Virus record (IMG/VR): IMGVR_UViG_3300027710_000044
Coordinates: 1 to 43,406 of that record
DNA: 43,406 bases
Origin: a virus
Direction: 5' to 3' (one strand)
The notes beneath the pieces are model-generated. The model was not told the DNA's origin. It saw only the letters and a program-made list of their open reading frames with translations, and did no database searches. How positions within the stretch are numbered: the first letter of the stretch is position 1; each line of letters starts with the position of its first letter. Position numbers and translations under genes: made by a program. Shown here one piece after another: positions 9,992-43,395 of this stretch.

Positions 9992-12900
9992 CTATCTCCT
10001 CTCTCTGTTTGAGCGTTCAGTGTCTTTAATTTTCATCATTACCTGGTCTGCAATTTCTTGAGGAGAAGCATTCTTTCCACCCTGAATATAGAAAGAGTAG
10101 TTTGTGTCTCCACTAGTACTTGACATACCCATTGATGGCCGCTTATTTGAAGATGCAACAGGTACGCGCGTATCTCCAATTGCACCTGGACCAGGTACTA
10201 CATGAAGATGTCTTGAAGCATTTGTTCCGTGGAACTCTGCAAATCCTCCACCTGCTTTAGCAAGTGTTTGATATTGACCAAGGTTTTGACCGACTAAATC
10301 GTATGCGCGACCAGTTACATGGTCTGAGTTAACAGAGCCAAGCCCTGTTGTTCTGTAGGAAGACGTGACTGTTCTTTTTCCTGTAAGCGAAGCATCCATA
10401 GCAGAATGTCTGCCCATTGTTATTGCAAGTTTGCTAGAAGTTGTGTCACCAATACCTGCGCCTCTTGGCGTTGATGTATCATCAGAATCAATAAGTTCTT
10501 TAAATGCTTCTTTTGTGAACCAGTCTGGCTTATTTTCTTTATCTCTCTTAAAGAATTCGTCCATACTTCCTATAAGTTCTGATGCTGCATCTGAAATTCC
10601 TAGTGCAGCAGTATCAAGAGCGGAAGTATCTCCCTTTCCACCTTTTTTGCCTTTTGATGTACTAATAAGTTCAAGGTCGCTCATTCCAGCAACACCCAAA
10701 ACTGCCGACTCTTTGCTTTTTGCTCCACGAACTTTACTGGTGTCAAATTTTCCTTGAGCCTTTATGTCAAGTGCAGCAAGTTCATCTGTTGACATATTCA
10801 TGACTTTGTCAATTACTGCGTTAGCGTCGACCATCTTGCCAGTGCCTTTTAGTTGAGAGTTCAACTGGTCTGCATACTGTTGACCAAGGTCAGTTCTTGC
10901 TTTTGTTCTTTGTTGGTCCAGCAATGCTTGAATCTCTTTGTCACCAGAAAAAGTTTCTGGGTCCATTCCATAAAGAGCGCCACCCTTTTTAAATGCTGAA
11001 CCACCTGCTTGGAAAGATTCTTCAAACTGAGCCTGTGCAATACCGCCACTTCCAAACAAAGTAGTATTTTGTTCTCCAACACCTTGTAAAAATTCCGCTT
11101 TATCTTTAAATGTAAGTGTTCCGCTGTTTGCTTTGTCTCTAAAAGTTCTGGCCATTTCATCAAGAATTCGTGGAGTGTCCCATTTTTTTATTGCATCATC
11201 AAAAATAGAAAAAGAATCAACAACTGCAGAAACTGTTACAGCATTCATTTGTTCTTTTGTTTTTTCCATTGCTACACCAAGGCCCTCAACTACGTCTTTA
11301 AAGTCAACAGTTGCATCATAAAGATTTATGCCAAGGCTTCCAGCCATATCCATTATTTCCTGGTCTGTCTTACCAGTCATTGTTTTTAGAGCGTCCATTC
11401 GCGCATTAAACTTGTCCTGCAATGGACCCATTGCCGCAAGGTTTGCAGCACCATCTTTACGAAGTTTATTAAGATATTCTTCTGGCTTAGCGGCTATATT
11501 TTTTTTATCTTCGTCGCTAAAAGTGACTCCACCTTTGGTTGAAAGTATTTCCGCTACTTCGTCAGGGCTTTTCATTATTCCGTTAGCGTCATAAACTCCA
11601 CTTCCAGTGCCAACTTTAAGAAGTTCTTGTTGTGCTCTAATAACTTTCATTGGGTCTTCAAAAGCAGTTCTTAATGATGATGGTCCTATTTCTTTGCCCT
11701 GTGCGTCACGACCACCATTTTTTGATTCAGATTGGACGGCTCCAAGAGTAGAACTTAAAGAAGTATTGATAATTGAATTAATTTGTTTTTCAGCAACAGC
11801 CTTTGCTTTTTGGGCTTTTATTTTTTCCCTGTTTAGATAGCCCATGACCATTCCGCCAATACCGCCAACAAGTGTTCCGACTACTGCTCCAACGGCAGTG
11901 CCTATTCCAGGAATTGCAGAGCCAATCATTGCTCCAGCAGCGGCACCTCCTAGTGCTCCGCTTACTCCACCACCTTTTACGGTTCTTGCGTTCATAGCGG
12001 TTCCTAGACCAGCAACAGCAACACCAGCAAGTGGGTTTGATTGCGCTACTGCAGCGCCTGCAGCCATTGCGCCCTGTGCTTCTTCTGAAGCAAATTGCGA
12101 ACCAGCGCCAAGTACAAAAGATGCTCCCATTTTTGCTGTGTTGCTTCCCAGCATCGCACGGTTTCGTCTTCCTCTATAGCCGTCCATTTTTGTTCTGTTT
12201 TTAATTGCGCGCTGTCTAAATTTTGCTCTTCTTGTTAATTCTCCACTTCCACCAGATGACGGAAGTTTTCCATCTTTGTAAGCACCTTCACCAAATGCTT
12301 TGTTATAGACCCTTGCTTGTCTGAACTCTTCATCAGTCATTCCAGCAACGTCTCTCATCTCTCCTTCGCCACCACCAGCGCCTGGAAGCCACATCTGGTC
12401 AGGTCCATCCATTATTTTTTTAAGACCTTTTATAAAAGTTCCACCAGTTGTTCCAGGTCTTTGAAGGTTGTTAATAAATCTTCTTGTTCTTCTAGGGGTA
12501 GGAGGAGTTGGTCCTGTGCCACCAGGAGGGGTTGCTCCGCCGCCTCCGCCACCGCCTCCTCCGCTTGGAGGAGTAGGACCAGTGGGACTTCCACCAGAAG
12601 AAGAAGCGAACCCATCGGGAAGTTGTTGACCTTGTCTATAGAATCTTCCGTTGTACTCAATGCCTCCTGGAGGGGCCATTGGTTTTCCTGCTCTGTTAAG
12701 AGGAACGCTTCCAGAAGAAAAAGTTGGAGAAGATGCAGAAGCAAGACCAGCAGATGCACTTGCAGCAGCCGCCGCTGGTGCTACTGGCGTACCAGCACGC
12801 ATAGATACCATGCCGACATCTGTGGCTACATCTGCCATTGGAGACATGCTTCCAGGACGAGCAATGTCTTCTATTCCATAGTAAGAACGCTCAGGTGCTG

Positions 12901-14908
12901 TGATTTGTGAAGTAGGAAGGAACGAACCACCTTTATAAAACTTGCCACCAATATATGTCCCCCCTTTTGGCGCTCTTTTAAACACTTCGTATTCAGGTCT
13001 TTGAAGTGGTGTTCTTGATGAACTTGGGAAAGCAGGAGTTCCAGGAGGAGTTGTAGGAGTTGTTGGTGTTCTTGGAGTTGTAGGAGGAGTAGTTCCAGTA
13101 GGAGTTGGAATTGGCGGAATCGGAATAGTCGGAATAGTTGGTGGAGTTGCATGAGTTGTTCCAAGGCCACCAGTAGGAGGTCCGTGAACAACCGTTGGTC
13201 CTCCACCTGGTCCTCCACCTGGTCCGCCAGGTCCGCCAGGACCACTTGGCACCATTTGTTGTTTGCCGTTAACCATGACCATCTTGTAGCCACCCTGGGC
13301 GTACATTGACTGCATACCCCTCATTCCGCCACGCATGGCGAGAATGACCCCAAGAGCACCAAGCGGTCCGCTGCCCATTTTATTCAACGCCTTCATTACT
13401 GTTGTAATTTGTCCGGCTATCTGTGCAAGACCTTTGACTAGGTCATTAACAAATGGAAGTAGTTTTTGCTGCAATTTTGTAAATTCACCCATTGCTGCAG
13501 ATATGTTTTCAAGGAGTAGTCCAATTCCACCGCCAAGTTCTTTTATAGCGCCTTCGTTTTTTGTTAAAAATTCGTTGAAATCGCCAAACTTAGAATTAAA
13601 AATATTTTTAACGTGTTGAAATATTTCATAAAAGAAACCTTCAATGACTTTTGCGCCACTAATAAGCGGACGCAATTTATCAGTTATTACGTCAAATCCA
13701 TCTCTAAATCTGTCCCACCAATTTCCTAATTTAGTAAACATTCCTTCAACAGTGTGGGTGTTGTTATTGATAAATGAAACAATTTTATCTGTCGCTTTTT
13801 GAACAAGAGTTACCAATCCGTGAAGCATGTTTCCCATACCAAAAGACCTAGTAGAAGAAGAAATTTTTACAAATCCTCTTCTTAAAATTCTAAACACTTC
13901 TTCCGCTGCATGTTTTAATGGTTCAAGCATTGGTTGACCCAAGTCTGCAAATTGGTTTCTAAGGATGGTGAAATAACCCTTAAGTTTGTTTATTAAAGTT
14001 CCAGAAACTTGTTCAAACTGTCCTTCTACTCCTGCTTCTTTTGCAAGAGAGCCAGTATCAATTGCTTTTTGAAGACCTTTTTTAGTTGTAATCTTCAACT
14101 TCTTCATTGCTTTTTCCATCGCCTGTTTATCAGGGAATAGTGCTTCTGCCGCAATCTTTGTTTCAGACCATGTAGTTTTTACGTTTTGAAGAGCCGCAAT
14201 TAACTCTCCTGCTTTTTGGACACCTTGGTCTAGCGGTTGCCCTGCAGAAGCAAAGTCCATCAAACCTTTTAATGTCTTTTGGCTTTTCATTGTAAATGTT
14301 GAGTTTTTGGAAACAGCAGCAAATGCCTTATTTAAAGTCTCAACACCAGCGGTTGCAAGATATGTGTCCGTGTGAAGAGCACGCATAACTTGTCTTGTTT
14401 GGTTTAATGTTGAACCAAACTCTTTTTTACTGGTTGTTTTGTAGGCATACATTGCTGCTTGATTTTCGCGTATAGCCGCAGCAGCGGCTGACGCTGCAGC
14501 AACAATTGCCGCCATTCCTGCGGCTAGTGGACCCTGTAGGGCACGCATAGCCTTCATAGCCGCATTACCGACAACAAAGGCAGCATGCACGCCTAGCATG
14601 GCAACAGCCATTAGGCCCATCTCAATGACTGAGCCCTTCATTGCTAGGGACAAGCCTTTTAAGCCAACTTTGGCAACCATAGATACGGCTTTGTCAAACT
14701 CGGTTACTGATTTACGGAGTCTTCCCCAGTACTTCGTTACACCGCCACCTGCGCTGCCCCCACTACCGCCTCCGCTGGCTGATGCAAATGTCGCAGCGCT
14801 TTTTTTTACAACTCTATCAAGGTTGCTAAAGTCTCTTATCGCTTTACGCGCTTCTCTATGACCCGTATAGTCGACATCAATTTTTATTTCTGTCTGAACA
14901 CCGGCCAT
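9992..14908 (-). CDS. Tape measure protein with C-terminal M15-like peptidase domain
   Basis: 1638 residues, the longest gene of the tail block, directly after the tail chaperones; ATG with GGGG upstream. Residues ~95-145 are an Ala/Val/Met-rich hydrophobic segment and ~983-1023 a glycine-zipper hydrophobic segment, both typical of tape measures that insert into the host membrane. Residues ~553-809 are Pro/Thr/Gly-rich and include two similar F-Y-[KR]-x-G/Q repeats. Near the end S-D-H-V-T-G-R-A-Y-D (H1530, D1537) and R-H-L-H (H1569) reproduce the three zinc ligands of M15 D,D-peptidases, preceded by S-S-Y-R. The usual E-x-x-H glutamate is not at its normal place. It sets tail length and may degrade peptidoglycan during DNA entry. 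Confidence 0.88.
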   Translation of the reverse strand: MAGVQTEIKIDVDYTGHREARKAIRDFSNLDRVVKKSAATFASASGGGSGGSAGGGVTKYWGRLRKSVTEFDKAVSMVAKVGLKGLSLAMKGSVIEMGLMAVAMLGVHAAFVVGNAAMKAMRALQGPLAAGMAAIVAAASAAAAAIRENQAAMYAYKTTSKKEFGSTLNQTRQVMRALHTDTYLATAGVETLNKAFAAVSKNSTFTMKSQKTLKGLMDFASAGQPLDQGVQKAGELIAALQNVKTTWSETKIAAEALFPDKQAMEKAMKKLKITTKKGLQKAIDTGSLAKEAGVEGQFEQVSGTLINKLKGYFTILRNQFADLGQPMLEPLKHAAEEVFRILRRGFVKISSSTRSFGMGNMLHGLVTLVQKATDKIVSFINNNTHTVEGMFTKLGNWWDRFRDGFDVITDKLRPLISGAKVIEGFFYEIFQHVKNIFNSKFGDFNEFLTKNEGAIKELGGGIGLLLENISAAMGEFTKLQQKLLPFVNDLVKGLAQIAGQITTVMKALNKMGSGPLGALGVILAMRGGMRGMQSMYAQGGYKMVMVNGKQQMVPSGPGGPGGPGGGPGGGPTVVHGPPTGGLGTTHATPPTIPTIPIPPIPTPTGTTPPTTPRTPTTPTTPPGTPAFPSSSRTPLQRPEYEVFKRAPKGGTYIGGKFYKGGSFLPTSQITAPERSYYGIEDIARPGSMSPMADVATDVGMVSMRAGTPVAPAAAAASASAGLASASSPTFSSGSVPLNRAGKPMAPPGGIEYNGRFYRQGQQLPDGFASSSGGSPTGPTPPSGGGGGGGGGATPPGGTGPTPPTPRRTRRFINNLQRPGTTGGTFIKGLKKIMDGPDQMWLPGAGGGEGEMRDVAGMTDEEFRQARVYNKAFGEGAYKDGKLPSSGGSGELTRRAKFRQRAIKNRTKMDGYRGRRNRAMLGSNTAKMGASFVLGAGSQFASEEAQGAMAAGAAVAQSNPLAGVAVAGLGTAMNARTVKGGGVSGALGGAAAGAMIGSAIPGIGTAVGAVVGTLVGGIGGMVMGYLNREKIKAQKAKAVAEKQINSIINTSLSSTLGAVQSESKNGGRDAQGKEIGPSSLRTAFEDPMKVIRAQQELLKVGTGSGVYDANGIMKSPDEVAEILSTKGGVTFSDEDKKNIAAKPEEYLNKLRKDGAANLAAMGPLQDKFNARMDALKTMTGKTDQEIMDMAGSLGINLYDATVDFKDVVEGLGVAMEKTKEQMNAVTVSAVVDSFSIFDDAIKKWDTPRILDEMARTFRDKANSGTLTFKDKAEFLQGVGEQNTTLFGSGGIAQAQFEESFQAGGSAFKKGGALYGMDPETFSGDKEIQALLDQQRTKARTDLGQQYADQLNSQLKGTGKMVDANAVIDKVMNMSTDELAALDIKAQGKFDTSKVRGAKSKESAVLGVAGMSDLELISTSKGKKGGKGDTSALDTAALGISDAASELIGSMDEFFKRDKENKPDWFTKEAFKELIDSDDTSTPRGAGIGDTTSSKLAITMGRHSAMDASLTGKRTVTSSYRTTGLGSVNSDHVTGRAYDLVGQNLGQYQTLAKAGGGFAEFHGTNASRHLHVVPGPGAIGDTRVPVASSNKRPSMGMSSTSGDTNYSFYIQGGKNASPQEIADQVMMKIKDTERSNRERR

Positions 14909-30438: not shown

Positions 30439-33400
30439 ATGGCAAGCACCAACATTGAGTTCAAGGCCATGCCTGGACAGTTTAATATTGATGAAGCACA
30501 GGGAATTGTTGAGTGCTTCGTTGCTGGCATTGGGAATAAAGACTCCGTGGGTGATGTTCTTATATCTGGCGCTTTTGCAAAAAGCCTTCAAAGACGCAAG
30601 CCAAGAGTGGTTTGGGGACACAACTGGAACGACCCAATCGGTAAAGTTCTAGAGATTTACGAAGTTGCTCCAGGCGATAGAAGGCTTCCGTCCAAGATGC
30701 TTAAGGCTGGCATTGGTGGTCTTTACGCAAGAGTTCAGTTCAACCTGAACTCCGAAAAGGGTCGCGAAGCGTTTGCAAATGTTGCTTTCTTTGGGCAAGA
30801 ACAAGAATGGTCAATTGGATATAAGACTCTTGATGCAATCTTTGACCCAAACATGCAAGCCAATGTTCTTAAAGAAGTAGAACTTTACGAAGTCTCTCCA
30901 GTTCTTCATGGAGCCAATCAATTGACGGGAACAATATCCGTCAAGTCTGACGATGCCATCACTTTGGCTGAATCAGAAAAAGGCTGGGGCATGATGGGTC
31001 CTCATCATATGATGGGACAAATGCCGCAAAAACCAAACATGATTGTAATTCGGGAAGACGATGACGACGATTACGAATCAGAAAAGCCAATTTTTGCTGA
31101 AGGCCTGGCTCGCCCACTTGGTGGAGAACAGCGTCAGCGCCTTGAAAGAGAAATTTCTGAAAGAACTAACTCAAAAATTAAATTGATTGAAGCAACTGAG
31201 AGTACTGCTGTATTCATGAAGTTCTCTCCCAATGGAGCGCCAACCGTTTATAGAATCGGTTATCACACTCCAGACAATTACTCAACATTTATGTTTGGTA
31301 AGCCAGAGGTAACTAATAGCGGAAATAGCGGTTCACGCATTGTCGTTCCATCACAGATGCCATCAATGCCAATGCAGGTAAAGCCTGGATATCAGCAGGG
31401 CTATGGAGAAATTATGCCGAAATCTGACGAAAAATCAGACCTTGCATCTCAGATTGAGCAATTAGAAGATTTAATTGCTGAAGAGATTGATGAAAAAGTT
31501 GGCAAGACAATCAACAAGAAAAATCTTTCAAAATTAAAAGCAATTCTTGAAAACCTTCAAGATGTAATTTCTTCTGCAGAAAAAGAAGACCTTGAAACAA
31601 AGAGTTATCTGATTCCCGTTAAACTAGAAGAAGCGTTTAACACCAAATCATTGCTTGACCCAATTTTTGATTACCACAGGGTTGAATCCGTAGTTACAGA
31701 AGATGGAATCCTAATTACGTCAGGCATAACAAAAGACCTGGTTGAGGCTATAGATAACGCCCAGAAGGGAATCGGTAGAAGTATCGGTGGTAGCCCGGGA
31801 AAAGTAAGGGCAGCCGGTAGGGCTGCTTCCGCAAACTTCGACCCGAACGCATGGGACGGAGATAATGACGGAATCGTTCAGGAAGGAACGCCCTTCCAAC
31901 GCCCTGCAATTCCTGGTGTTAATGACTTTTCAACCAGAGGAAAAGTAAACAAAAGAAGAGCAACAGAGGGATTTGCCAGTCAATCAGGCGTTGTCCCAGC
32001 AGCACAATCCGTAAGCGGAGAAGTTGTTTCAAAAAACGAATTGCCAAAATCTTTAGTTAAACGCATGGAAGACGCTGCAGCGTCTGCCGTAGGGCGCAAG
32101 GGAGACTCTTCAAAAATTATTGATGGGGCAAAAGAAGTATTAACAAACCTTACTGATGAAAAACTTAAAGACAGTGTTGGTAAGTCTGTATCTAATGCAA
32201 GAAAACGATTAGCGGAAATGCTTTCTGACGAAAAAATTATTGAACAATTTTCTTCACAAGAAAAAATTGAAGATTTTATGGATGACATGGCATTTTCCAT
32301 TCAGAAAATGCTTGACCTGCATGTTGACTCTGTTAAAAAAACAGGAACCGACAGTGAAATAGAAGAAATTAAAGAAATTGTAGATAACGCAAGCAATGAC
32401 CTTGATGACGTTTTTAAACAATTAACTTCTCGTTCTAAGTCTTTTTGGGAGAAAAGACGTGAACCTGATTCTTACAGAACAATAGAAGAAGCAAAAGAAT
32501 CAGCAAGATTAGACAGACAACTTTTGATGACATCGCTAAGAGAAGGCGGAGAACCAGAAGACCTTGAAGAAACATTGCGTTTACAGGATGGCGTAAACCT
32601 ATTACGTAGCGATTCTGAAAAAATTATTGATGGGAAAATGTCTCTTGAAGATTTTAATTACGAATTAGAAAAAGCAATTGATGGAATTATAGAAAACGAC
32701 CCGTCAATTGAGCCTGAAGAATTAGTAAATGAACTTGCTGATGCATTGCGCGAAGGCGCGTCAAAAGACGGTGCAAACCCCTTAATCGTCTCTCTTGCTA
32801 AAGAATTTGGTGATGAAAAAATCACTGGTGGCGATTTAATTGACTACCTAAATATGACTCGTAGAGATTCTAAATACAGAGCAGATAGAGGCAAAATTGA
32901 AAAAGAAAACATTCGTGTTTTTGCTTCTAATAGCGGCAGTGGCAATAATCGAATTGTAAGACCTACGGGCATACAAAGAGATGAACGGGGAAATGTTGAT
33001 GCTACCGAAGCACGCAATATGAGAGCAGAACGCGATAATGCTGTATTTGAAAAATTAAGAGAATTTGGTTTGTCAGACGAAGAAATTGAACAACTAACAG
33101 GCGTACCTAACGGCGGACGCAACGTTGAGCAAGGCGATATTAGTCAGGATGAATTAGACGAACTAAACACCGTAATTAATGAAGGAATAGCAGAAGGTCT
33201 TGAAAGTGGAGAAATTACTGGTGTTGTTTCAAGAGAAGATGCTCGCAGAATTCTTGAAGAGAGTGAAGGTCTTGCTCGTGTAAATCCAGGACTTGCTTCA
33301 TCTGGAAAAACGCCAAGAAAGAAAATTACCAAAGACGGAACAGTTACTCCTCAAAAGAACCTCTCAATCACCCTTGATGATGACACAATTGGTGTTCTTA

Positions 33401-36246
33401 ATGAAGAAGTTGGAATGCTTCTTGACAATACAAAAAACCGTCAGCCTTTGCTCGCAATGAAGAAGATTCTTGAAGAGTCAAAAGGTGGAAAATTCGAAGT
33501 AACACCACAGCAGTTTGATGATATTGCTGCTGCAATTGAAGATTCTTTTGACAACGGTGTTGTTTCTTCTGATATTTACGGTGTATTGCATCAAGCAGCA
33601 GAATCTCTTGATGGAAAATACGACATCAACGAAATAGCCAATCCCAAGAAATCAAAGGGGTTTGCCTCTTCTGGGAAACGTGCCAATAATGGCGCACCAA
33701 CAGATATGACCGAACTACAGCAAAGACAATACGTTGCGTGGGCTCGTCAGCAAAAAGGTCTTCGTGTTGCTCAAGAAATTATCCGAGAGCATGATAGCAA
33801 CAGCGGACAAATGTCGGCTTCTAGATGGAAAGCGCTTCGCACCATGTATTCAAACATGGGACCAGGAAGTGGAGGACCACGCCGCTTTGCATCAAACACA
33901 AGTCAGCCAACTGCAGGATTTAGAGACGCATTAACTTTTGGAGCAGGACCACTTCCCTACGTCCACACAACTACTGGCTGGAAAAAAGTCGGTGGTGCAG
34001 GAGGTCTTAACGAAGCAGGAAGATATATGGACCCAAAAACTGGAAAGGTTTACTATGTAAAGCATTCTAGGTCTGGCGAAGAATTCCGCGGAGAAACAGA
34101 AATTTTGACAAGCAAACTGTATCAACTTCTTGGTGTTCCGACCATTGACTACAACCGTGGTGTTCATAACGGAAAACTTCAAAGAGTCAGTGAATGGGAT
34201 GACAGAATAAGAGAAGTAAGTCATTCTCAGATGTCTAAAGACTCAAAGTTTAAAGCATCAGTTCAAAGAAGCCTTATTGCTAATGCATGGCTTGCAAACT
34301 GGGACGGCACTGGCAATATGTCAAACATTGTCCAGGGTCCTAACGGAGAGGCAGTAATGGCCGACTCTGGTGGTGGCTTGATATTTAGAGCGCAGAGATA
34401 CAGTGGTTTAAAGACAAACCCACCGTTTGGTCCTAAAGTTGACGAAGTTGAAAACTTAATAAATGGCGTAACACGTTCTGGACAGCCTGTTCAGACCGCT
34501 GTCTCCAAGGCTTACTACAAAGACATTGAACCTTCAGAGGTTGCGAGACAAGTAAAAGAACTTTCTCAAGTAACAGATGACGACATCAAGAAATTGGTTT
34601 CCCAGCAAATTAGCGACAAAGAAGATGGAGACAGGCTTGCTCAAATTCTTATTGCTAGAAGAGACTGGATTGTCGACCACTGGTCAACAGGAAAGTTGGT
34701 TGACAACCCGTCTGATACATCACGAAGCGATGCTTCTGGTGCTAAAGCAAAACCATTTGCTTCACTAACAAAGAAACCCGCTCGTTCAGTAAGCGCTTCA
34801 AGGGTTGGATTTGCATCAAATATTGATGGTCCTGGTGATGACGAGCGTGGAGGCGGAGCAAGAAGAGCCCGTGGAGTTGGCGAAATGGTTCCAGGTGGAA
34901 ATCTTGCTCCAGGAAGAGCAAGACGAGAAGGAGAAAAAAATAGAGCAGGTACTGAAGTTGGTGCAGAAACTCAATTTGCTGGCAAAACATTTGATGAAAT
35001 AAAGCCAGATAATTGGGATGAACTTACAACAGACGAAAAATTTCAATGGGCTTTGACTCAAGGCAACCCAGATAGCGGAAGCGAAATGTCTCGCGTTGCT
35101 TATAGAAAACTTCTTGCCGACCTTGGCGACCAAATGGACAAAGAAGAACTTGCAGAAATGTCTCCTGCTGCGAGAAGAGCAGAACTCGCTGCAAGAAGAG
35201 AAGAACAAAGAACAATTGAAAGAATGGGCGTTCCTAGAGAACCAACAGAAGGTGCAGCGGCTAAACCAAAACGCGAAACATCTTCAGAACCAAAAGCCCC
35301 CAAGATTAAAAAGTCTTCAAACGCTCAGGATGCAAAAACAGAAAGAGAATCAAGACTTGATAAGTTTCTTGAGGCAATTGACGCCTCGTCATCAAGAATT
35401 GATTCAAGCGATTCTGAAATAAACGAGCACAGAGACTTGTGGGATGAAGTTACGACATCTTTGCAAGAAAATGGATATGACTTCACCATCAGGAGCCTTG
35501 ATAGAACAATTGAAGTTTTAGATGACTATGTCAGCGCATTTGAAGACGAACAGTTAACTCCAGACGAAAGAGCCAACTTGGCAGCAGCAAGAAAGATTCT
35601 TAAAACCCTTTTGGGAACAAGAACTGCCTATTCTGAAGATGAGTGGATTATCGGAGGCAAAAAACCGTCAAGCAGTCAAATTAATTTTGCTTCGGCAACT
35701 GGTGGAACAAGCAAAAAATTTAACATAAACCTTGCACAAGACATCCAAAAAGACCTTAAAAAACTTAACGGTACTGGCAAGCCTGGGACAAGAGGTTTTG
35801 CTTCAACCTCTGCTGGCGGAAAGACAATGATTACAGATGAGGCGACATTCTTTAAAGATGTTCAATCATCTCTAGACAAAGAAATAAAAAGAGCAACCAA
35901 AGACGGGGATAAGAGAGCAATTGCTGGTCTCAGAAAACTGTCTGAATTAATTTCCAGAGACGAAGCAGGAAAAACTGGAAGCAGAAGAACAAATGTGGGA
36001 AGTATTTACTTTACCGCTGAAGAGGCAGACCAGATTCTTGATGGTCTTATGTTTGCTCTTGACACTCAACTTGCTGACGGCGGAGAAAAAAGAATCGCTT
36101 GGTATTCAAAACTTATTGAGATGGTTGCTGGTGCAGCCAAGTCAACATTTATTGATAAAAAGACAAACGCAATAACAGACACAACACGAACAGCAACAAA
36201 TTCACGCGGACAAAGTAGAACCATAAATATAGTTCCCGAAGCATAA
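30439..36246 (+). CDS. Prohead protease fused to a long multi-domain polyprotein (includes kinase-like domain)
   Basis: 1935 residues with AGGGAG before the ATG. Residues 1-~180 are an HK97/S78-type prohead protease: V-V-W-G-H-N-W-N-D-P-I-G-K (H61) and E-W-S-I-G-Y (S125), then L-Y-E-V-S-P-V-L-H-G-A-N. The family is normally ~200-250 residues. A D-G-D-N-D-G EF-hand-like loop is at 473-482. Beyond it are charged helical segments punctuated by F/L-A-S motifs at about 511, 827, 951, 1074, 1149, 1439, 1457, 1749 and 1786. Residues ~1160-1425, between two of these, resemble a HipA/PI3K-like kinase: Y-Y-V-K (K1208), G-E-T-E (E1219/E1221), N-W-D-G-T-G-N (D1289) and A-D-S-G-G-G-L (D1309). It probably matures the capsid and releases internal proteins; that processing is inferred. 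Confidence 0.8.
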   Translation: MASTNIEFKAMPGQFNIDEAQGIVECFVAGIGNKDSVGDVLISGAFAKSLQRRKPRVVWGHNWNDPIGKVLEIYEVAPGDRRLPSKMLKAGIGGLYARVQFNLNSEKGREAFANVAFFGQEQEWSIGYKTLDAIFDPNMQANVLKEVELYEVSPVLHGANQLTGTISVKSDDAITLAESEKGWGMMGPHHMMGQMPQKPNMIVIREDDDDDYESEKPIFAEGLARPLGGEQRQRLEREISERTNSKIKLIEATESTAVFMKFSPNGAPTVYRIGYHTPDNYSTFMFGKPEVTNSGNSGSRIVVPSQMPSMPMQVKPGYQQGYGEIMPKSDEKSDLASQIEQLEDLIAEEIDEKVGKTINKKNLSKLKAILENLQDVISSAEKEDLETKSYLIPVKLEEAFNTKSLLDPIFDYHRVESVVTEDGILITSGITKDLVEAIDNAQKGIGRSIGGSPGKVRAAGRAASANFDPNAWDGDNDGIVQEGTPFQRPAIPGVNDFSTRGKVNKRRATEGFASQSGVVPAAQSVSGEVVSKNELPKSLVKRMEDAAASAVGRKGDSSKIIDGAKEVLTNLTDEKLKDSVGKSVSNARKRLAEMLSDEKIIEQFSSQEKIEDFMDDMAFSIQKMLDLHVDSVKKTGTDSEIEEIKEIVDNASNDLDDVFKQLTSRSKSFWEKRREPDSYRTIEEAKESARLDRQLLMTSLREGGEPEDLEETLRLQDGVNLLRSDSEKIIDGKMSLEDFNYELEKAIDGIIENDPSIEPEELVNELADALREGASKDGANPLIVSLAKEFGDEKITGGDLIDYLNMTRRDSKYRADRGKIEKENIRVFASNSGSGNNRIVRPTGIQRDERGNVDATEARNMRAERDNAVFEKLREFGLSDEEIEQLTGVPNGGRNVEQGDISQDELDELNTVINEGIAEGLESGEITGVVSREDARRILEESEGLARVNPGLASSGKTPRKKITKDGTVTPQKNLSITLDDDTIGVLNEEVGMLLDNTKNRQPLLAMKKILEESKGGKFEVTPQQFDDIAAAIEDSFDNGVVSSDIYGVLHQAAESLDGKYDINEIANPKKSKGFASSGKRANNGAPTDMTELQQRQYVAWARQQKGLRVAQEIIREHDSNSGQMSASRWKALRTMYSNMGPGSGGPRRFASNTSQPTAGFRDALTFGAGPLPYVHTTTGWKKVGGAGGLNEAGRYMDPKTGKVYYVKHSRSGEEFRGETEILTSKLYQLLGVPTIDYNRGVHNGKLQRVSEWDDRIREVSHSQMSKDSKFKASVQRSLIANAWLANWDGTGNMSNIVQGPNGEAVMADSGGGLIFRAQRYSGLKTNPPFGPKVDEVENLINGVTRSGQPVQTAVSKAYYKDIEPSEVARQVKELSQVTDDDIKKLVSQQISDKEDGDRLAQILIARRDWIVDHWSTGKLVDNPSDTSRSDASGAKAKPFASLTKKPARSVSASRVGFASNIDGPGDDERGGGARRARGVGEMVPGGNLAPGRARREGEKNRAGTEVGAETQFAGKTFDEIKPDNWDELTTDEKFQWALTQGNPDSGSEMSRVAYRKLLADLGDQMDKEELAEMSPAARRAELAARREEQRTIERMGVPREPTEGAAAKPKRETSSEPKAPKIKKSSNAQDAKTERESRLDKFLEAIDASSSRIDSSDSEINEHRDLWDEVTTSLQENGYDFTIRSLDRTIEVLDDYVSAFEDEQLTPDERANLAAARKILKTLLGTRTAYSEDEWIIGGKKPSSSQINFASATGGTSKKFNINLAQDIQKDLKKLNGTGKPGTRGFASTSAGGKTMITDEATFFKDVQSSLDKEIKRATKDGDKRAIAGLRKLSELISRDEAGKTGSRRTNVGSIYFTAEEADQILDGLMFALDTQLADGGEKRIAWYSKLIEMVAGAAKSTFIDKKTNAITDTTRTATNSRGQSRTINIVPEA

Positions 36247-36350: not shown

Positions 36351-37751
36351 ATGGCAGAAAAAGTTGAAGTCAGCGTTGATGCAGACGGCAATGTCCTGAA
36401 GTGTGCAAAGGGCGCAAATGCTACTGAGTGCGGGTACACGCCTGGCGCAAAAGTATGTGGCAAGTGCGGTGCAATGCCCATTGAAATGAAGATGGTTCCA
36501 GTCGAAGAATACGACGAAAAGGGATATGAAATGGGTTCCAAGAAGCCAATTCCAGGAAGAAACATGAACCAAGACCTCATCACTGATGATGAAGAAGACG
36601 ACGAAGTATCTGTCATGGGTCAGGGCAAAAAGGGCATGGGTATGGGCATGCCTATGGACGAAGAAGAAGACGAAGACGCAGAAATGCCGATGAAGAAGTC
36701 AAGAAAAGCAGTTGGTATGGGAATGCCAGGCGAAGATGACGAAGAAGAAGACGACGAAGAAGACATGGGCGATGAAGAAGCCGATGACGAAGAAATGAAG
36801 ATGTACGGCATGAGTGACGACCTTGAGTCAGCACGCAAGCGTCGTCTTGCAACAATGGGTGCAAAGTCTGCAGAACTTGGCAGAAACGCATACATGTGCG
36901 CAATTGAAAGAAAAGTTTACCCAGGCGGTTCTTCCGTTTGTGACGACTGCCCTGGTGGTTGTGTTGCCGAAAAGGGAATGCCTGGTCTTCTTTCTGTTGA
37001 GGGAATTGCCGAAAAGATGTTCAATGGAACAGTTCTTGATTCTGGTTATTCTTCAGATGCAGACATGTTTGTTGTTGATGTACACACTAAAGATGGTCGC
37101 TCAGTAGAAGTTTTTGTTGACGGAACAACCGCAGAAGTTCTCGGCTTCCACAAGTTGGACGACAGCGCTTTTGAGCAAAAGTCTGCTCTTGACTCAATCA
37201 TGGTTATTGACCTTCATGAGGCTGCAGAGATTGCTGTCAAGTCAATTCAGGGCGATGTTGTAGCAGTTGAGCCAGACATTTTTGAAGGCTTTGACGCTTA
37301 CGCAGTTGAAATTGAAGGACTTGATGGAAAGTCATACGACGTTTTCGTTTCTCTTGACGGTGAAGTTCTTGGATACGACAAGTACGAACCAGAAGAAGCA
37401 GAAGCAATTGAAGCAGAAGCAGCAGAAATTGCACTCAAGCGTGCTTTCACCGAAGATGTTAGAAACCAAATGGCTAAAGAGGGGACCGCTCTTCCAGACG
37501 GCTCTTTCCCAATTGCTAATGCATCTGACCTCAAGAATGCTATTTCAGCATATGGTCGTGCAAGCGACAAGGAAGCAGCAAAGCGTCACATCATGAAGCG
37601 TGCAAAGGCTCTTGGTGAAGAAAAACTTATTCCAAGCAACTGGGTAAGCGGTTCAGAAAAATCAGCAGACCTTCCAGATGACATCAAATCTTCGCTCATT
37701 GAATTTGAACTCCTTGAGGAGGAGTTTAGAAACACCGACCCGAGTATCTAA
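36351..37751 (+). CDS. Acidic head-cluster protein with two Cys4 clusters and PepSY-like repeats
   Basis: 466 residues, strong AGGAG. N-terminal C18, C27, C36 and C39 look like a small zinc ribbon. Residues ~80-165 are acidic with Gly-Met repeats (G-M-G-M-P, D-E-E-D), like scaffold or DNA-mimic tracts. C183, C197, C200 and C204 form a second cysteine cluster. Residues ~213-265 and ~283-345 are two similar beta modules (V-E-V-F-V-D-G-T-T-A-E-V-L-G and Y-D-V-F-V-S-L-D-G-E-V-L-G) that resemble PepSY domains. Residues ~381-431 carry the L-P-D-G-S-F-P-I ... A-K-R-H-I-M-K-R-A-K-A-L-G module seen in many phage head-cluster proteins (DUF6582, name from memory). It could be a scaffold or internal head protein. 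Confidence 0.65.
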   Translation: MAEKVEVSVDADGNVLKCAKGANATECGYTPGAKVCGKCGAMPIEMKMVPVEEYDEKGYEMGSKKPIPGRNMNQDLITDDEEDDEVSVMGQGKKGMGMGMPMDEEEDEDAEMPMKKSRKAVGMGMPGEDDEEEDDEEDMGDEEADDEEMKMYGMSDDLESARKRRLATMGAKSAELGRNAYMCAIERKVYPGGSSVCDDCPGGCVAEKGMPGLLSVEGIAEKMFNGTVLDSGYSSDADMFVVDVHTKDGRSVEVFVDGTTAEVLGFHKLDDSAFEQKSALDSIMVIDLHEAAEIAVKSIQGDVVAVEPDIFEGFDAYAVEIEGLDGKSYDVFVSLDGEVLGYDKYEPEEAEAIEAEAAEIALKRAFTEDVRNQMAKEGTALPDGSFPIANASDLKNAISAYGRASDKEAAKRHIMKRAKALGEEKLIPSNWVSGSEKSADLPDDIKSSLIEFELLEEEFRNTDPSI

Positions 37752-37767: not shown

Positions 37768-40700
37768 ATGACGGGGGTGAACTATAAAAAAATTCGCCAC
37801 TACGCTCCTGGCATAGAAAAAAAACAGAAACGCTTTGACCCAGACATTGCCGCTCTTTTATTCAAAGCAGGAGTAAGGGTAACTTCCAGCACTGAGAGAC
37901 TTATTGCCGACGTCTCAATTAAAGCAGCGATGCCTTTAGTGTCGCCAAACTCTGGAGACTCAGACGGTAAAAAAAGAGGCTTAGAAAGCGAAAGAGCATC
38001 TAAATTAGAAAACTATGCAGGAATAGTCCTTGACCCAACTGCTAAAAAAACTCCTGATTCTTATCTAAAACTTCACGTTACAGAACCTGAAAGAAAAGCG
38101 GCTTTAATGTCGCCAGAACCAGTTCCAAACTTTGGATGGGTTAAGTACGGAGAAACAAATACTCCTAAAGTTTCCGGCAATGTAAAAGTATCTGTAACAA
38201 GACACCGAGTTGACCCAAGAACTGGTAAGCCAATTATGTCAACGGGCTATGACCCGTATGACCCGTTTTCTCCGTACATGAATCAAGGCATGGAGGAAAA
38301 AGGTTTAGGAAGAACAATTGCCGAGGCTAATCCTGGACAAAAACTTATACATTTTACGGCTAGAGCAACAGGCCTAGTTATTGATGCTTTAGGAAAATTT
38401 AGATGCCCTCCTGGTACACCAGCAGCAAACAGATTTACCAACGAGCGGGGTGAAGGATGTTTTGCTGTTACAGCAGTTGACCTAGCAGCAATCGCTACAT
38501 CAATTGCAACAATCATGTCTGATGGCGGCGGTGTCAGCATGACAGAAAATCTTCTTAGGGTTGGAATTTCTGCAGCAGAAATACGTGATGTTTACAGGCA
38601 GTCTGGTTTGCGAGGTCTCGCATCAATGGCAGAAAGAGTTCTTGGCGGTCCTGGTCATCTTGTTGGAGAAAAATATAAAGACCCCTCCTACAGAGGAGCC
38701 ATAGCCCCAGCGCTCAGAGCCATAATGCGTTTGACTGAGAACAAAACAGAAAGAATGGCAAGAATTGCTGCCGAAAAAACAGGCAGAGTAGAAGACCTTA
38801 AAGCAGACCCAAGAGTTCTTGCAGTTATGGCGGCTCGTGGTGTTTCTTTTACTGGAGATGAAGAAAAAGACTTAATTAAACTTCTTGAAGCAATGGGTCA
38901 AATTCCAGAGTTTGGTCTTGCTGCTGATGGCCATGTTTTTTATGTTGGTGGAAACGAAGACACACATAAAGTATGGGTAAGAAAAAAATTCTTTGAACAG
39001 CATGCACAAGTAATTGAGCAGTATTACGGCGCATTGACTCCTGCTCAATTAGAACAAAAATATCTTGATGAAATTGCTTCTGGTGGAACTCCTTTTACGA
39101 TGGCAATAGATGCTGCGGCAAGACGAGAAAGAGACCTCAGAATAGGTGCTTTTGAGCAGATTGCTTTAGATGCGATTGATAGGCCTCAATCACTTAAAGA
39201 CATAAGAATAACTGTTGATTTTGACGCTAATTCTGGTACTGGCGGAGTTCTTGATGGTTATAATTTTGAAACTTTAAACGGAATGGCTGGTCCCAACTTT
39301 CTTTACGTTGGTTCTGGTCCTGCAATAGCAGGTCACCGCGGTGGGCCACCAGCAGGTCATATGGACCTGTATCAAGCGACTGGCGGCTCTACGGAAGAAC
39401 AATGGGCTGCGATTGCAGCAGCAATGGCTGCGGATGAAACTGGAAGACATTGGGCTTTTACTTATGGTGTTGACTTAGCAGCGATGCAAGGTCGTGGATG
39501 GAGAGACTTTGGTGCTCAAGCAGCAGCACATGAGATTTATCACTTTGACCAAGTCATTGCTATAGCAAATTACATGGCTCAAATGCATGCTCTTGAACCA
39601 GGAAGATATCCAGCCACTGATTTGTCAACAATGAGTAGCAATGATTTATTTCTACTGGCACAAGAGTTTTTAACTAACGCTGACCCTCAAATGCTAAGAG
39701 AGGCATTAGGTGCAGATATTGAAGACCTGATTACTGCAAGACTTGATGGAGTCGCAGGAGCGTATTCTGGAGACAAACAACAGGACGCACTGGTAGCAAT
39801 AGCAGCAAGCGCTTCTGGTGACCCAGAACTTGCTAGGAAGGCAAACGCTGCAAGAAGTCTTGCGTTGCTTGAAACGATGGCAGAACTTGCAGCCAATAGA
39901 AAAGTTGGCTTAATTGGAGATGACCCAGACTTAGATAAAGCGATAGATACTGTATTTGGTCCTGCGACAATAACTCTTGATGGAATTCCTCCGCTTCCTG
40001 GTGGCACAACTACTCCAGATGGAACTATCCCAGACACTCCTACGGATGCTCCAACCCCATCTCGCCCAGCGTGGGGAGACATGTGGTGGTCTACTGACGA
40101 CATATCAATAGACATGCCAGAAGCACCATCTACTGGCGATGGTGGTTCTGAAGGCGGAGGAGGCGGAGGAGGCGGAGGAGGAAGAATCCACGACCCTTTC
40201 AGCAGAAGAAGAAATGGAAAAATTCCTCGCAAATTGCGTGATGGTGATGCTACGGGCGAAGATATTGACGACCTTATTGATGGCACGCCAGAAGACCCAA
40301 GAGACCGTTCTTCAAAGCGTAAAGGTGGAATAAAATCTACATGGCGCTCAATAAGAAACATAAGGCTTAGAACTGGAAACCAGAACCCGAGCGACAGAGA
40401 AAAGAAAAAATTCTTAAATGATGCACTAGATGAACTTCCACTAACAATTGAGCAAATTGAAGAATTGGCTCAAAAACTAAGAAGAGGCGAAGTTTTAAGT
40501 GAAGAAGAAAACAGCAAACTTGTTGAATCAATTCAAAAACTAAGACAAAAACTTTTTGAAGCAGATGCAAATCTTGCAAACGCTATTGCAGAATTTGAAG
40601 CAGGATGTCCTCCAGATGTTGCTGCTGCAGACGTTGGAAATTATGACGATATTGGACCATGCCGTGCTTATTTAGAAATGATGGAGAGAGCCGTTGAAAA

Positions 40701-43395
40701 ATGGAAATTTGTTGTAAATAAACTTGAAAGAGCAGTTATTCCTCAACTAAATGACTTGTGGGACATAAATCAACATATTCAAGAAAATGGTCCACTCCCT
40801 CCACCGCCAATTAGGTGGACACCACCAGAATTCGTATACCGAGGCGGAATGGCATCTGTGTCTAACATTGCATCATCTCAAAATGCAAAACTTTCTGCTG
40901 ATGAAATTGCTTTAGTTTCATCTGCTTTTACAGATACCCCACTTCCCACAACTGTAGGTATGTCACCTGCTGCTCTTAGAGACAGAACTGTTCTTAATCA
41001 AGTTTATGAAAGATATGGATTAACTCCTCCATCTTCTTCAAACTTGGATGATACAGAAACCGTTGTTCCAGTTTTAAGAATTCTTGACAAAACAACAATC
41101 AGTGATGACTTAATTGTTGAAACAGAAATGATTCTTGACTCTAAAGATATTGGTTCACTTTTTGAAACCAACACGATTGAAACACTTCGTGTTATGGATA
41201 GTCCAGACAATATTGGATTCGCCAGCACATCAGAAGCGCGTTCTAGAAAAGCAGCAGGAATTGCTGGAAGATTGCTTAATTCTAAAGCAGCAAGAAAAAC
41301 AATGAAGAGAATAGGTCTTGACCCAGAGAACGAAGACCTCGTTGATATGGCTGCAGAAGCGGCGCTTGCTTTCTCTATTGGTGGTCCTGCAGCAGCAATA
41401 ATTCCAATTGCTAGACGCGGTAGCAGAGATGCTGCAGAAGCAGCAATAAAAATGATGGTTGCAAAAGGCTGGATTACACAATCTGTTGCTGGAAAAATTT
41501 CTCAATACGGTATTGACCGCATTGCAAAAGAAGGACTTCCTCAAGAAATCATTGACGCAATGAAGACAGTCGGCGTTGCAGTCACAGACGAAGAAACAAA
41601 ACAAAACGCCTTGCGTATGGCTGGAGTTCTTCAAGAGAGGTCATCGGAATTAAAGAGAGCATCTGCTAAAAGAATTGCTGAAATAAGACAAAGAATTGCC
41701 GAAATGAATGAAAAGTCTGGATTCTTTGATATTGAAATTAAAGAACTTGGAACTGGCATTGGGGCAAACAATGTTCCCAAAAACGACGCTAAAGCAAATC
41801 AAAGAAAGAGCAAAGTTAGGGTAGTTATCCCTGCTGGCTCAAAAGCAAAAGTAGATAAGTCTGGCGAAGTTATGATTCCGCCAGGAAAAATGAAGATTAC
41901 TAATGTTGACAAAAATGGAGTAGTTGAAGCAGAAGTTACTGAACAAACTTCTGCAATTGAATACATGAAGAAAGCAGAAGAAAACCTTGTCAAGTTTATG
42001 CAAAAGACGACCGATGAGGGTGTGAAAAAACTTTTATCTACAACTGCAAGCAAATATAAAAAAGCAAAACGTGATGAAACAATTTCATCTAGAAATTCTG
42101 CAGATTCTGGTATTTCAAAAATAACGCTAGAAAAAGCGGAAACAATAATTGAAGATGCTAAAGAAATGGGATATGCATTATTTAACGAAAATTATGTTTA
42201 TGTCAATGGTGAAAAAGTTGAAGTTAACAGATATTACGATTTGTTCACAAAAGCGATGACTGATGCAATTAAAGAAATAAAAGAAGAAGCAGAAAAAAAA
42301 CTGTTTATATCCAACACAAAACTAAATAACTACATAATTACAAATAGTGTGCAAGGAATATATTCTGCATTAATTGGGATAGCAGGTTCAGTATTTGGAG
42401 GAATTGACAGAAGAACAAGAATTTCTATGTCAAAGGCTTCTTTACAGGATTTTCTGACTTCTGGAAGAATTGCAAATGTTGATGTTGATAGCAGGATGTT
42501 GTCAACAATGAAATTAAATAGAGACAAAATAATTGGTGGAGAAAATTCTTCTGCAGAATTTATGCTTACACCAGTAGAAATAATCCATGAATTTTATACA
42601 AATTCCGTAGAACAGTCTCTTTATGCTTCTGGTACAAAAATTGGTTCAGAAGAGTTTTCCGATTATGGAAGAGGCATAGAGGTTGTCATCAGGTCAGAAA
42701 ATGCAAACCGTATTGGGTACGGCCGCTCTGACGGATATGAAACCAATGGAATATATTCAATGCTTACTGACGATAGTCAAAAGAGAATTGTTATGACAAT
42801 TTTTAGCGACGCAATGAACGGAATTGAAAAAGCAAAAGATTCAATAATTTCAGCACTTCAAGCAAAGATTGAAAAAAACTATTCTCAGGTTTTAAAAAAG
42901 AACACCGAAGAAAACTTTGAAGCATTCCTCGTTGGAGAAATAAGCCTTAACGACATTGAGCATATTAAAATTCCGGTTTCAATATTTGAGATAGAAAAGA
43001 AACCAATATCTCAGTCTCATCCATTTGCTGGAAAAAACAGAATCTCTTCTGAATTAAAAAAACGCGGGAAAACAGATTCAGAAATCAAAGACTTTTTTGA
43101 AAAGGGCGGCCTATTGGGTGGAGGATATAACCCTAAATATCTGACCTATTTATTGCAAGTTGAATCAGCAATAGAGTTAAGAGATAGATTAATTTCTTTC
43201 GGCATACCAGAAGTTATCTTTACCAACAAAAATGGAATAGACATAATGGCTGAAGGAACATGGGTGACACTTCCTCCAAATCCCAAAACAGGTATTGATG
43301 CTCTTAGAATGCTTGCAAAGATGGAAGTACGTGGGATAATAGAAAAAGTTGCACCAGAGAAAGCAAGCAAAACGCCAGAAAAGGTTGCATCATGA
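37768..43395 (+). CDS. Giant virion-cluster protein with zincin motif and ART-like segments
   Basis: 1875 residues; ATG with AGG seven bases upstream (a GTG at 37777 is possible). Residues ~205-235 hold R-C-P-P-G-T-P-A-A-N-R-F and a second cysteine, C231. H588-E-I-Y-H592, followed by A-Q-E-F (E633), fits a gluzincin HExxH + E metalloprotease site. A ten-glycine run at 796-805 separates this from a basic, then helical, second half. Y-R-G at 1024, G-F-A-S-T-S at 1150 and V-V-I-P-A-G-S ... G-E-V-M-I-P-P-G at ~1352-1373 resemble the three motifs of ADP-ribosyltransferase toxins, but spacing is longer than usual. Another E-A-F-L-V-G-E-I-S-L-N-D-I segment is near the end. Virion localisation and effector function are inferred from the operon and motifs. 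Confidence 0.7.
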   Translation: MTGVNYKKIRHYAPGIEKKQKRFDPDIAALLFKAGVRVTSSTERLIADVSIKAAMPLVSPNSGDSDGKKRGLESERASKLENYAGIVLDPTAKKTPDSYLKLHVTEPERKAALMSPEPVPNFGWVKYGETNTPKVSGNVKVSVTRHRVDPRTGKPIMSTGYDPYDPFSPYMNQGMEEKGLGRTIAEANPGQKLIHFTARATGLVIDALGKFRCPPGTPAANRFTNERGEGCFAVTAVDLAAIATSIATIMSDGGGVSMTENLLRVGISAAEIRDVYRQSGLRGLASMAERVLGGPGHLVGEKYKDPSYRGAIAPALRAIMRLTENKTERMARIAAEKTGRVEDLKADPRVLAVMAARGVSFTGDEEKDLIKLLEAMGQIPEFGLAADGHVFYVGGNEDTHKVWVRKKFFEQHAQVIEQYYGALTPAQLEQKYLDEIASGGTPFTMAIDAAARRERDLRIGAFEQIALDAIDRPQSLKDIRITVDFDANSGTGGVLDGYNFETLNGMAGPNFLYVGSGPAIAGHRGGPPAGHMDLYQATGGSTEEQWAAIAAAMAADETGRHWAFTYGVDLAAMQGRGWRDFGAQAAAHEIYHFDQVIAIANYMAQMHALEPGRYPATDLSTMSSNDLFLLAQEFLTNADPQMLREALGADIEDLITARLDGVAGAYSGDKQQDALVAIAASASGDPELARKANAARSLALLETMAELAANRKVGLIGDDPDLDKAIDTVFGPATITLDGIPPLPGGTTTPDGTIPDTPTDAPTPSRPAWGDMWWSTDDISIDMPEAPSTGDGGSEGGGGGGGGGGRIHDPFSRRRNGKIPRKLRDGDATGEDIDDLIDGTPEDPRDRSSKRKGGIKSTWRSIRNIRLRTGNQNPSDREKKKFLNDALDELPLTIEQIEELAQKLRRGEVLSEEENSKLVESIQKLRQKLFEADANLANAIAEFEAGCPPDVAAADVGNYDDIGPCRAYLEMMERAVEKWKFVVNKLERAVIPQLNDLWDINQHIQENGPLPPPPIRWTPPEFVYRGGMASVSNIASSQNAKLSADEIALVSSAFTDTPLPTTVGMSPAALRDRTVLNQVYERYGLTPPSSSNLDDTETVVPVLRILDKTTISDDLIVETEMILDSKDIGSLFETNTIETLRVMDSPDNIGFASTSEARSRKAAGIAGRLLNSKAARKTMKRIGLDPENEDLVDMAAEAALAFSIGGPAAAIIPIARRGSRDAAEAAIKMMVAKGWITQSVAGKISQYGIDRIAKEGLPQEIIDAMKTVGVAVTDEETKQNALRMAGVLQERSSELKRASAKRIAEIRQRIAEMNEKSGFFDIEIKELGTGIGANNVPKNDAKANQRKSKVRVVIPAGSKAKVDKSGEVMIPPGKMKITNVDKNGVVEAEVTEQTSAIEYMKKAEENLVKFMQKTTDEGVKKLLSTTASKYKKAKRDETISSRNSADSGISKITLEKAETIIEDAKEMGYALFNENYVYVNGEKVEVNRYYDLFTKAMTDAIKEIKEEAEKKLFISNTKLNNYIITNSVQGIYSALIGIAGSVFGGIDRRTRISMSKASLQDFLTSGRIANVDVDSRMLSTMKLNRDKIIGGENSSAEFMLTPVEIIHEFYTNSVEQSLYASGTKIGSEEFSDYGRGIEVVIRSENANRIGYGRSDGYETNGIYSMLTDDSQKRIVMTIFSDAMNGIEKAKDSIISALQAKIEKNYSQVLKKNTEENFEAFLVGEISLNDIEHIKIPVSIFEIEKKPISQSHPFAGKNRISSELKKRGKTDSEIKDFFEKGGLLGGGYNPKYLTYLLQVESAIELRDRLISFGIPEVIFTNKNGIDIMAEGTWVTLPPNPKTGIDALRMLAKMEVRGIIEKVAPEKASKTPEKVAS
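40153..40182 (+). repeat. Poly-glycine coding repeat
   Basis: GGC-GGA-GGA units encode ten consecutive glycines (residues 796-805) between the zincin-containing N-terminal half and the basic segment starting R-I-H-D-P. It is a domain boundary. Confidence 0.9.

Follow-up and report, generated by a model that had tools for sequence, protein, structure and literature searches.

A short linker motif of phage-specific spelling in long proteins with an N-terminal prohead protease: candidate cleavage sites in phage polyproteins

In the 43,406-nucleotide stretch of viral DNA analysed here (IMG/VR record IMGVR_UViG_3300027710_000044, positions 1 to 43,406; hereafter the window), a chain of 1935 residues begins with an S78 (HK97-type) prohead protease and carries recurrent copies of an F-A-S or L-A-S motif, most of them in predicted linkers between folded modules. 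Among IMG/VR relatives the linker motif is mostly uniform inside a phage and unlike among phages. Judged from sequence, the copies are probably cleavage sites, the most likely cutter being the S78 protease of the same chain and the products being virion cargo. An earlier note on the window had proposed that F-A-S marks where this protease cuts; the phage-specific spelling across several proteins, the location in linkers and the shuffling of modules described below add to that proposal, in which cutting, and the S78 domain as its agent, are still what we infer.

The protease polyprotein and its recurrent motif

The N-terminus of the 1935-aa chain had been taken for a prohead protease, and this assignment is borne out by matches to PF04586 (E 8.7e-11, 42.7 bits against a cut-off of 21) and to phrog_80 (E 1.1e-28); TIGR01543 was matched at E 2e-13, with 50.7 bits, under its cut-off of 59. 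Residues H61 (in WGH) and S125 (in EWSIGY), the putative catalytic His and Ser of the S78 family, are invariant across 16 homologs, and the AlphaFold model of this domain is of low confidence. The gene sits between a portal gene upstream (28310-30343) and an HK97-fold capsid gene, the downstream side being read from a longer, near-identical contig (G001) that encodes the same 1935-aa protein (100% alike) and in which the protease ORF is followed by further large ORFs and then by the HK97-type major capsid gene. Coordinates of the features in the window are collected in Table 1.

Counted over the whole chain, FAS occurs eight times and LAS twice. For FAS the composition predicts 0.38 copies (Poisson p 8e-9), which makes it the top enrichment among all tripeptides of the protein, and for [FL]AS the ten copies compare with 1.28 expected and with a maximum of 6 in 5000 shuffles, the earlier note having estimated about one such triplet or fewer. 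When shuffling was confined to 16-residue blocks, FAS appeared 0.42 times on average and at most 3 times (n=2000), so that a chance origin of the enrichment is ruled out by global and local shuffles alike. Nine sites spanning 31969-35805 had been listed in the earlier note and their coordinates are exact, the residue numbers given there being those of the residue before F/L; the description of their surroundings, usually G before and S, N or T after, was only partly accurate, G preceding five of the nine copies and S/N/T following six. A tenth copy, D-L-A-S-Q at residue 335, was absent from that list and is rejected as a site: it stands where a predicted helix begins, and relatives whose motif is spelled otherwise still have [LI]AS at this place. 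Some pairs of motifs are only 9-18 residues apart. Codons vary among the copies, serine being encoded by TCN as well as by AGY, which rules out a DNA-level repeat and indicates that selection acts on the protein. The Gly/Pro/Ser-rich stretches of the window's portal and of a tail protein are without the motif.

Table 1. Features of the window, with nucleotide positions, residues of the encoded protein and the basis of each assignment
Feature	Residues	Position	Strand	Basis
Tape measure protein, motifs of matching spelling	41 (TFASAS), 722 (GLASAS), 767 (GFASSS)	9992..14908	-	sequence
1935-aa protease-cargo polyprotein ORF		30439..36246	+	ORF translation
S78 (HK97-type) prohead protease domain	4-170	30448..30948	+	PF04586, phrog_80
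Conserved block FDPNAWDGDNDGIVQEGTPFQRPAIP	467-492	31837..31914	+	upstream of motif 1
Motif 1, G-F-A-S	511-514 (F at 512)	31969..31980	+	inside pLDDT<50 segment 447-531
Helical cargo module	532-832	32032..32934	+	confident model; homologous to L043 726-1032
Motif 2, F-A-S	828-830	32920..32928	+	helix end; low pLDDT from 833
Motif 3, L-A-S	952-954	33292..33300	+	sequence count and model
Motif 4, F-A-S	1075-1077	33661..33669	+	G-F-x-S invariant, 11 homologs
Motif 5, F-A-S	1150-1152	33886..33894	+	sequence count and model
Kinase-like cargo module	1173-1415	33955..34683	+	best fold match CtkA
Motif 6, F-A-S	1440-1442	34756..34764	+	sequence count and model
Motif 7, F-A-S	1458-1460	34810..34818	+	F, S invariant in 11 homologs
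Motif 8, F-A-S	1750-1752	35686..35694	+	homologs: GF[QDN]S or F[AT]S
Motif 9, F-A-S	1787-1789	35797..35805	+	F, S invariant in 11 homologs
466-aa ORF, acidic, PepSY-like repeats, without motif		36351..37751	+	ORF and profile search
1875-aa second polyprotein, zincin motif at residue 588		37768..43395	+	sequence
HEIYH zincin motif of the 1875-aa ORF		39529-39543	+	conserved in relatives
GFASTS of the 1875-aa polyprotein, F-A-S	1151-1153	41218..41226	+	sequence

The chain was modelled with AlphaFold in two parts (residues 1-945 and 930-1935), homologs being supplied as an alignment. Segments with pLDDT<50 make up 706 of the 1951 modelled residues and hold eight of the nine motif copies (p ~0.002 by simple binomial counting), and nearly every long linker of the modelled chain holds a motif. 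The earlier note had suggested a whole-chain model to see whether all motifs lie in disordered linkers; the ninth copy, at residue 828, lies at a helix end, three residues ahead of a pLDDT<50 segment. The kinase-like domain at residues ~1173-1415 is indeed bracketed by two copies, at 1150 and 1440; CtkA, its closest fold, is a Helicobacter HipA-type kinase. No significant match was returned by a fold search with the N-terminal half of the chain, nor when solved structures were searched by sequence, using the protease or the C-terminal half as query. When 11 homologs are aligned, the motif is kept and its flanks vary, as the earlier note had suggested might be found: F and S at 1075, 1458 and 1787 are invariant, the middle residue is variable and the flanks contain insertions and deletions.

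Other proteins of the window share some of these features. In the linker orthologous to the GFASTS linker of the 1875-aa polyprotein each relative shows its own spelling, and the tape measures of the group have motifs around residue 40 and in a linker midway along the chain, mostly spelled as in their own phage. Among the cultured phages of the collection searched, none encodes a protein related to the 1875-aa chain. The 466-aa ORF, which may be regarded as a scaffold candidate, has a C-terminal domain like that at the end of the GMA6 and DalanDe protease proteins, suggesting that a gene was split or fused. A further element is the FDPNAWDGDGDGIVQEGTPFQRPA-like block, present in one copy in each of several cargo chains per phage, upstream of the first motif, and tentatively viewed as an anchor or a (capsid-)targeting signal. 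As FDP[NK]AWDGDGDGxVQEGTPFxRPA it is seen in cargo ORFs of G001, G002, G004-G006, G008 and G009, usually once per chain, and its Asp spacing resembles a calcium loop.

Spelling of the motif among phages and among the proteins of one phage

A scan of IMG/VR for related proteases gave 80 loci, and a second scan, with a more distant member as query, also gave 80, a few of them common to the first set; each long protease ORF was then searched without bias for enriched three-residue patterns. The spellings recovered are [G/R]FAS, GLAS, RGM[A/R]S, GF[S/A]S, G[L/M]RS, RLSSG and GP[V/I]GxM, one of which dominates per phage. At or near the top of the unbiased search stand FAS in the window's group, G.AS/GL.S/LAS in L038 and L040, GM.S in L039 and L074, GF.S in L030-L036 and L042, G.RS/GL.S in L048 and L054, G.RS/GM.S in L079 and L084, LSS (in RLSSG) in L086, and P.G.M in L073 and L076. 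The linker ahead of the conserved C-terminal module illustrates the switch at a single place, reading RGFAS in the window, MGFSS in G006, RGMSS in G005 and SGLRSS in L043. A logo of 198 copies reads R-G-[FLM]-[ARS]-S-[RST]-[ST]-G, in which only the flanking positions are independent, the copies having been selected by pattern. More M-type spellings were met in L157, L159 and L166 (PSGSM, EAGM and P[TI]A[SA]M); with GP[VI]GxM of L073 they form a second motif class ending in Met, in very long protease ORFs. Two further loci, L015 and L022, have protease ORFs with many five-residue repeats of the ANLxGA type, and L146, probably a phage contig that was binned with a Phycisphaerae MAG, has a protease of 75% identity.

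In many shorter relatives' proteases (~800-1250 aa) the pattern search gave no clear motif, and no enrichment was found in the cultured relatives GMA6, Cantare and DalanDe or in DSL-LC01. Since the cultured relatives with short proteases, and DalanDe, are without the motif, it belongs with polyproteins rather than with the protease family in general. On a tree of protease domains the spellings are clustered yet switch several times, the independent switches being too few to name specificity residues.

For contigs fetched at length, the phage's own spelling was counted by class: the protease ORF, the other ORFs up to the capsid gene, the tape measure, a 3100-3200-aa ORF where there is one, and the remainder. 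In the contigs examined whole it is enriched in the cargo ORFs, and mostly in the tape measure too, and not in the remaining proteome, and a table of spelling by phage is near diagonal. GLAS in G004 was seen 9 times in the protease ORF (0.07 expected), 6 in the other ORFs up to the capsid gene (0.20), 3 in the tape measure (0.10), 10 in the 3112-aa ORF (0.12) and once in the rest (0.81). The corresponding counts for the protease ORF, the other cargo ORFs and the rest are 13, 4 and 0 for GM[ARS]S in G005 (expected 0.12, 0.20 and 0.47), 11, 8 and 0 for G[LM]RS in G008 (0.15, 0.26 and 0.45), and 11, 10 and 0 for P-x-G-x-M in G011 (0.11, 0.35 and 0.43), in whose tape measure P-x-G-x-M is not enriched. 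The spelling in the protease ORF agreed with that in the other proteins at a concordance of 34.8, against 13.6 when shuffled and a maximum of 23.3 in 20,000 shuffles. The pattern is less clear in some phages: GF and GL copies occur side by side in G006, G009 shows few copies beyond its protease ORF, and the two FAS phages have 5 and 6 copies in their other cargo ORFs, a modest enrichment that some local shuffles reach.

The stretches between motifs recur in other contexts. Residues 523-830 of the window's chain are 66% identical to residues 726-1032 of L043, the other modules standing in unlike order, and the kinase module is placed in a different ORF in G005, G008 and G010. BLAST matches end within 20 residues of a motif in 357 of 1280 cases against 162 (s.d. 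12) at random, a count that is indicative only, the matches being non-independent. By these sequence comparisons, modules between motifs are exchanged among proteins and phages. The cargo modules of relatives include zeta-toxin-type kinases, sigma-70 region 4, NUDIX and DUF3626, and are plausibly host-directed proteins.

The major capsid protein was also searched, and no motif of matching spelling was found in it. It has an N-terminal extension, and a conserved [LIVM]-x-[AS]-S-L-T stretch, present in most phages, is a possible site. A candidate site immediately ahead of S-[IVL]-G-[DE] was discarded, the HK97 mature start aligning further downstream.

Cleavage and other readings of the motif

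A spelling that is uniform and switches jointly argues for a trans-acting recogniser common to all these proteins, most simply a protease. The S78 enzyme is preferred as the cutter because it lies on the chain, because the S78 HK97-type family cuts virion precursors and because the sites fall at module borders. The phage would make several very long precursors (the 1935-aa and 1875-aa chains, with additional ORFs in relatives reaching ~5300 aa), each consisting of folded modules joined by disordered linkers, in which the S78 protease would recognise G-[F/L/M]-x-S and cut, releasing a protease part of ~56 kDa together with a set of smaller proteins that may be virion cargo delivered to the host. 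With one enzyme reading every site, the sites would change their spelling together and each phage would come to possess a private cut code.

The exact position of the cut may be considered from three sides. Cutting between A and S would give pieces of 513, 316, 124, 123, 75, 290, 18, 292, 37 and 147 residues, and a cut before S agrees with HK97, whose mature capsid chain begins with Ser. A cut after S agrees with T4, where the cleavage pattern is hydrophobic-x-residue. A cut after the hydrophobic residue would bring the F/L/M and the P-x-G-x-M spellings under one rule.

Several observations count against cleavage by the S78 enzyme. The capsid protein, its classical substrate, lacks a motif of matching spelling; the tape measure carries sites though it is not a head protein; and the cultured relatives and many shorter proteases show no enrichment, to which the mixed copies of G006 and the few outside the protease ORF of G009 may be added. 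The capsid protein would cease to be an obstacle if the cutter, possibly acting after host entry as has been proposed for polyvalent proteins, were instead the zincin-like metallopeptidase (HEIYH) encoded in the adjacent 1875-aa polyprotein. All eight motif-bearing contigs compared have an HExxH, similarly placed, in the orthologous ORF. This alternative is unlikely, given that the S78 protease shares its chain with most of the sites and belongs to a family known for cutting virion precursors, and that the 1875-aa ORF matched no Pfam or NCBIfam peptidase profile. Among the peptidases for which a role in processing polyvalent proteins has been proposed, metallopeptidases are nevertheless the most frequent (PMC5512222).

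It is conceivable, and improbable in our estimation, that the motif stays uncut and serves for docking to the capsid interior, the protease, a scaffold or fellow chains, having diverged together with its partner. A shared recogniser alone would suffice for uniform spelling and joint switching, and the tape measure copies are no harder to explain by docking than by cleavage, but the copies lie at module borders, with one in nearly all long linkers, module ends gather at them, pairs stand as close as 9-18 residues and a protease is present on the chain. Very little weight falls to a motif arising as a by-product of low-complexity linkers or of domain-shuffling joints, with no recogniser at all: the motifs do lie within Gly/Ser/Arg-rich linkers near which modules are shuffled, yet shuffles of local composition fail to yield the motif in protease ORFs, the copies use unlike codons, spelling changes between phages at one and the same linker and in several proteins, and Gly/Pro/Ser-rich stretches of the window's portal and of a tail protein do not contain it.

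Relation to known phage and viral systems

The N-terminal 170 residues of the chain match the HK97 protease family, and the downstream capsid protein is a homolog of HK97 gp5. The HK97 protease is a short stand-alone protein, whereas here the chain runs ~1760 residues beyond the domain, with many putative sites and cargo modules. In T4 the prohead protease gp21 is accompanied by head cargo aimed at the host (internal proteins, Alt), and gp21 cuts (L/I)-x-E in separate small proteins. The likeness to T4 internal proteins drawn in the earlier note survives in kind, as plausibly host-directed cargo, and not in detail: the enriched motif here has Ser and not Glu, no x-E pattern tops the enrichment lists, and no homology of the cargo to T4 internal proteins was found. 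The herpesvirus assemblin, a maturational protease that is the N-terminal part of a longer precursor and cuts at ...A/S, has two sites and a scaffold; compared by description, the present chain differs in its many putative sites and enzymatic cargo.

In SPN3US and the phiKZ-type phages, the gp245 protease acts at one short motif, A-x-E, in many packaged and ejected proteins, some of which have several motifs; the sites mostly strip N-terminal propeptides from proteins with genes of their own, and Glu is the last residue of the motif (PMC10052503). One protease and one short motif serving many proteins is what is proposed here too; the sites of the present phages, in contrast, stand between modules of very long chains, and their motif has Ser and switches among close relatives. 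Polyvalent proteins (Iyer et al. 2017) are phage proteins of great length and many domains, among them embedded peptidases and putative enzymes aimed at the host; they are likened to RNA-virus polyproteins, and their assemblin-like peptidases are always at the C-terminus (PMC5512222). Unlike domains are likewise found in one chain here (kinase-like in the window; zeta toxin, sigma-70 region 4 and NUDIX in relatives), but the protease lies at the N-terminus (residues 4-170) and not at the C-terminus, and no cleavage motif was found in the portions of that article available.

Processing of several packaged proteins by a prohead protease at a common motif is already known, in SPN3US (PMC10052503) and in T4. 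An N-terminal prohead protease followed by many linker motifs of phage-specific spelling appears to be new within the open-access literature, in which no description of the motif or of the architecture was found. Even chances would be given to a wider proposal, that uncultured tailed dsDNA phages of a widespread group may use RNA-virus-like polyproteins, with one protease, several cargo chains of up to ~5300 aa, a phage-private code that switches whole between close relatives, and modules exchanged at the sites.

Release of cargo by embedded peptidases has been proposed before, and no cut sites were found for it in the open-access literature, including the portions of the polyvalent-protein account available. 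The candidate sites described here are recognisable in the sequence itself, mostly uniform per phage and unlike in close relatives, which makes cargo borders predictable and the co-evolution of protease and substrate testable. The motif offers a way to split uncharacterised phage proteins of a thousand residues into likely mature products, several of which resemble host-directed enzymes. As a separate observation, sigma-70 region 4 occurs inside motif-bearing cargo proteins (L144:13923-16556 and L132:10726-18015), as if a transcription factor were cargo.
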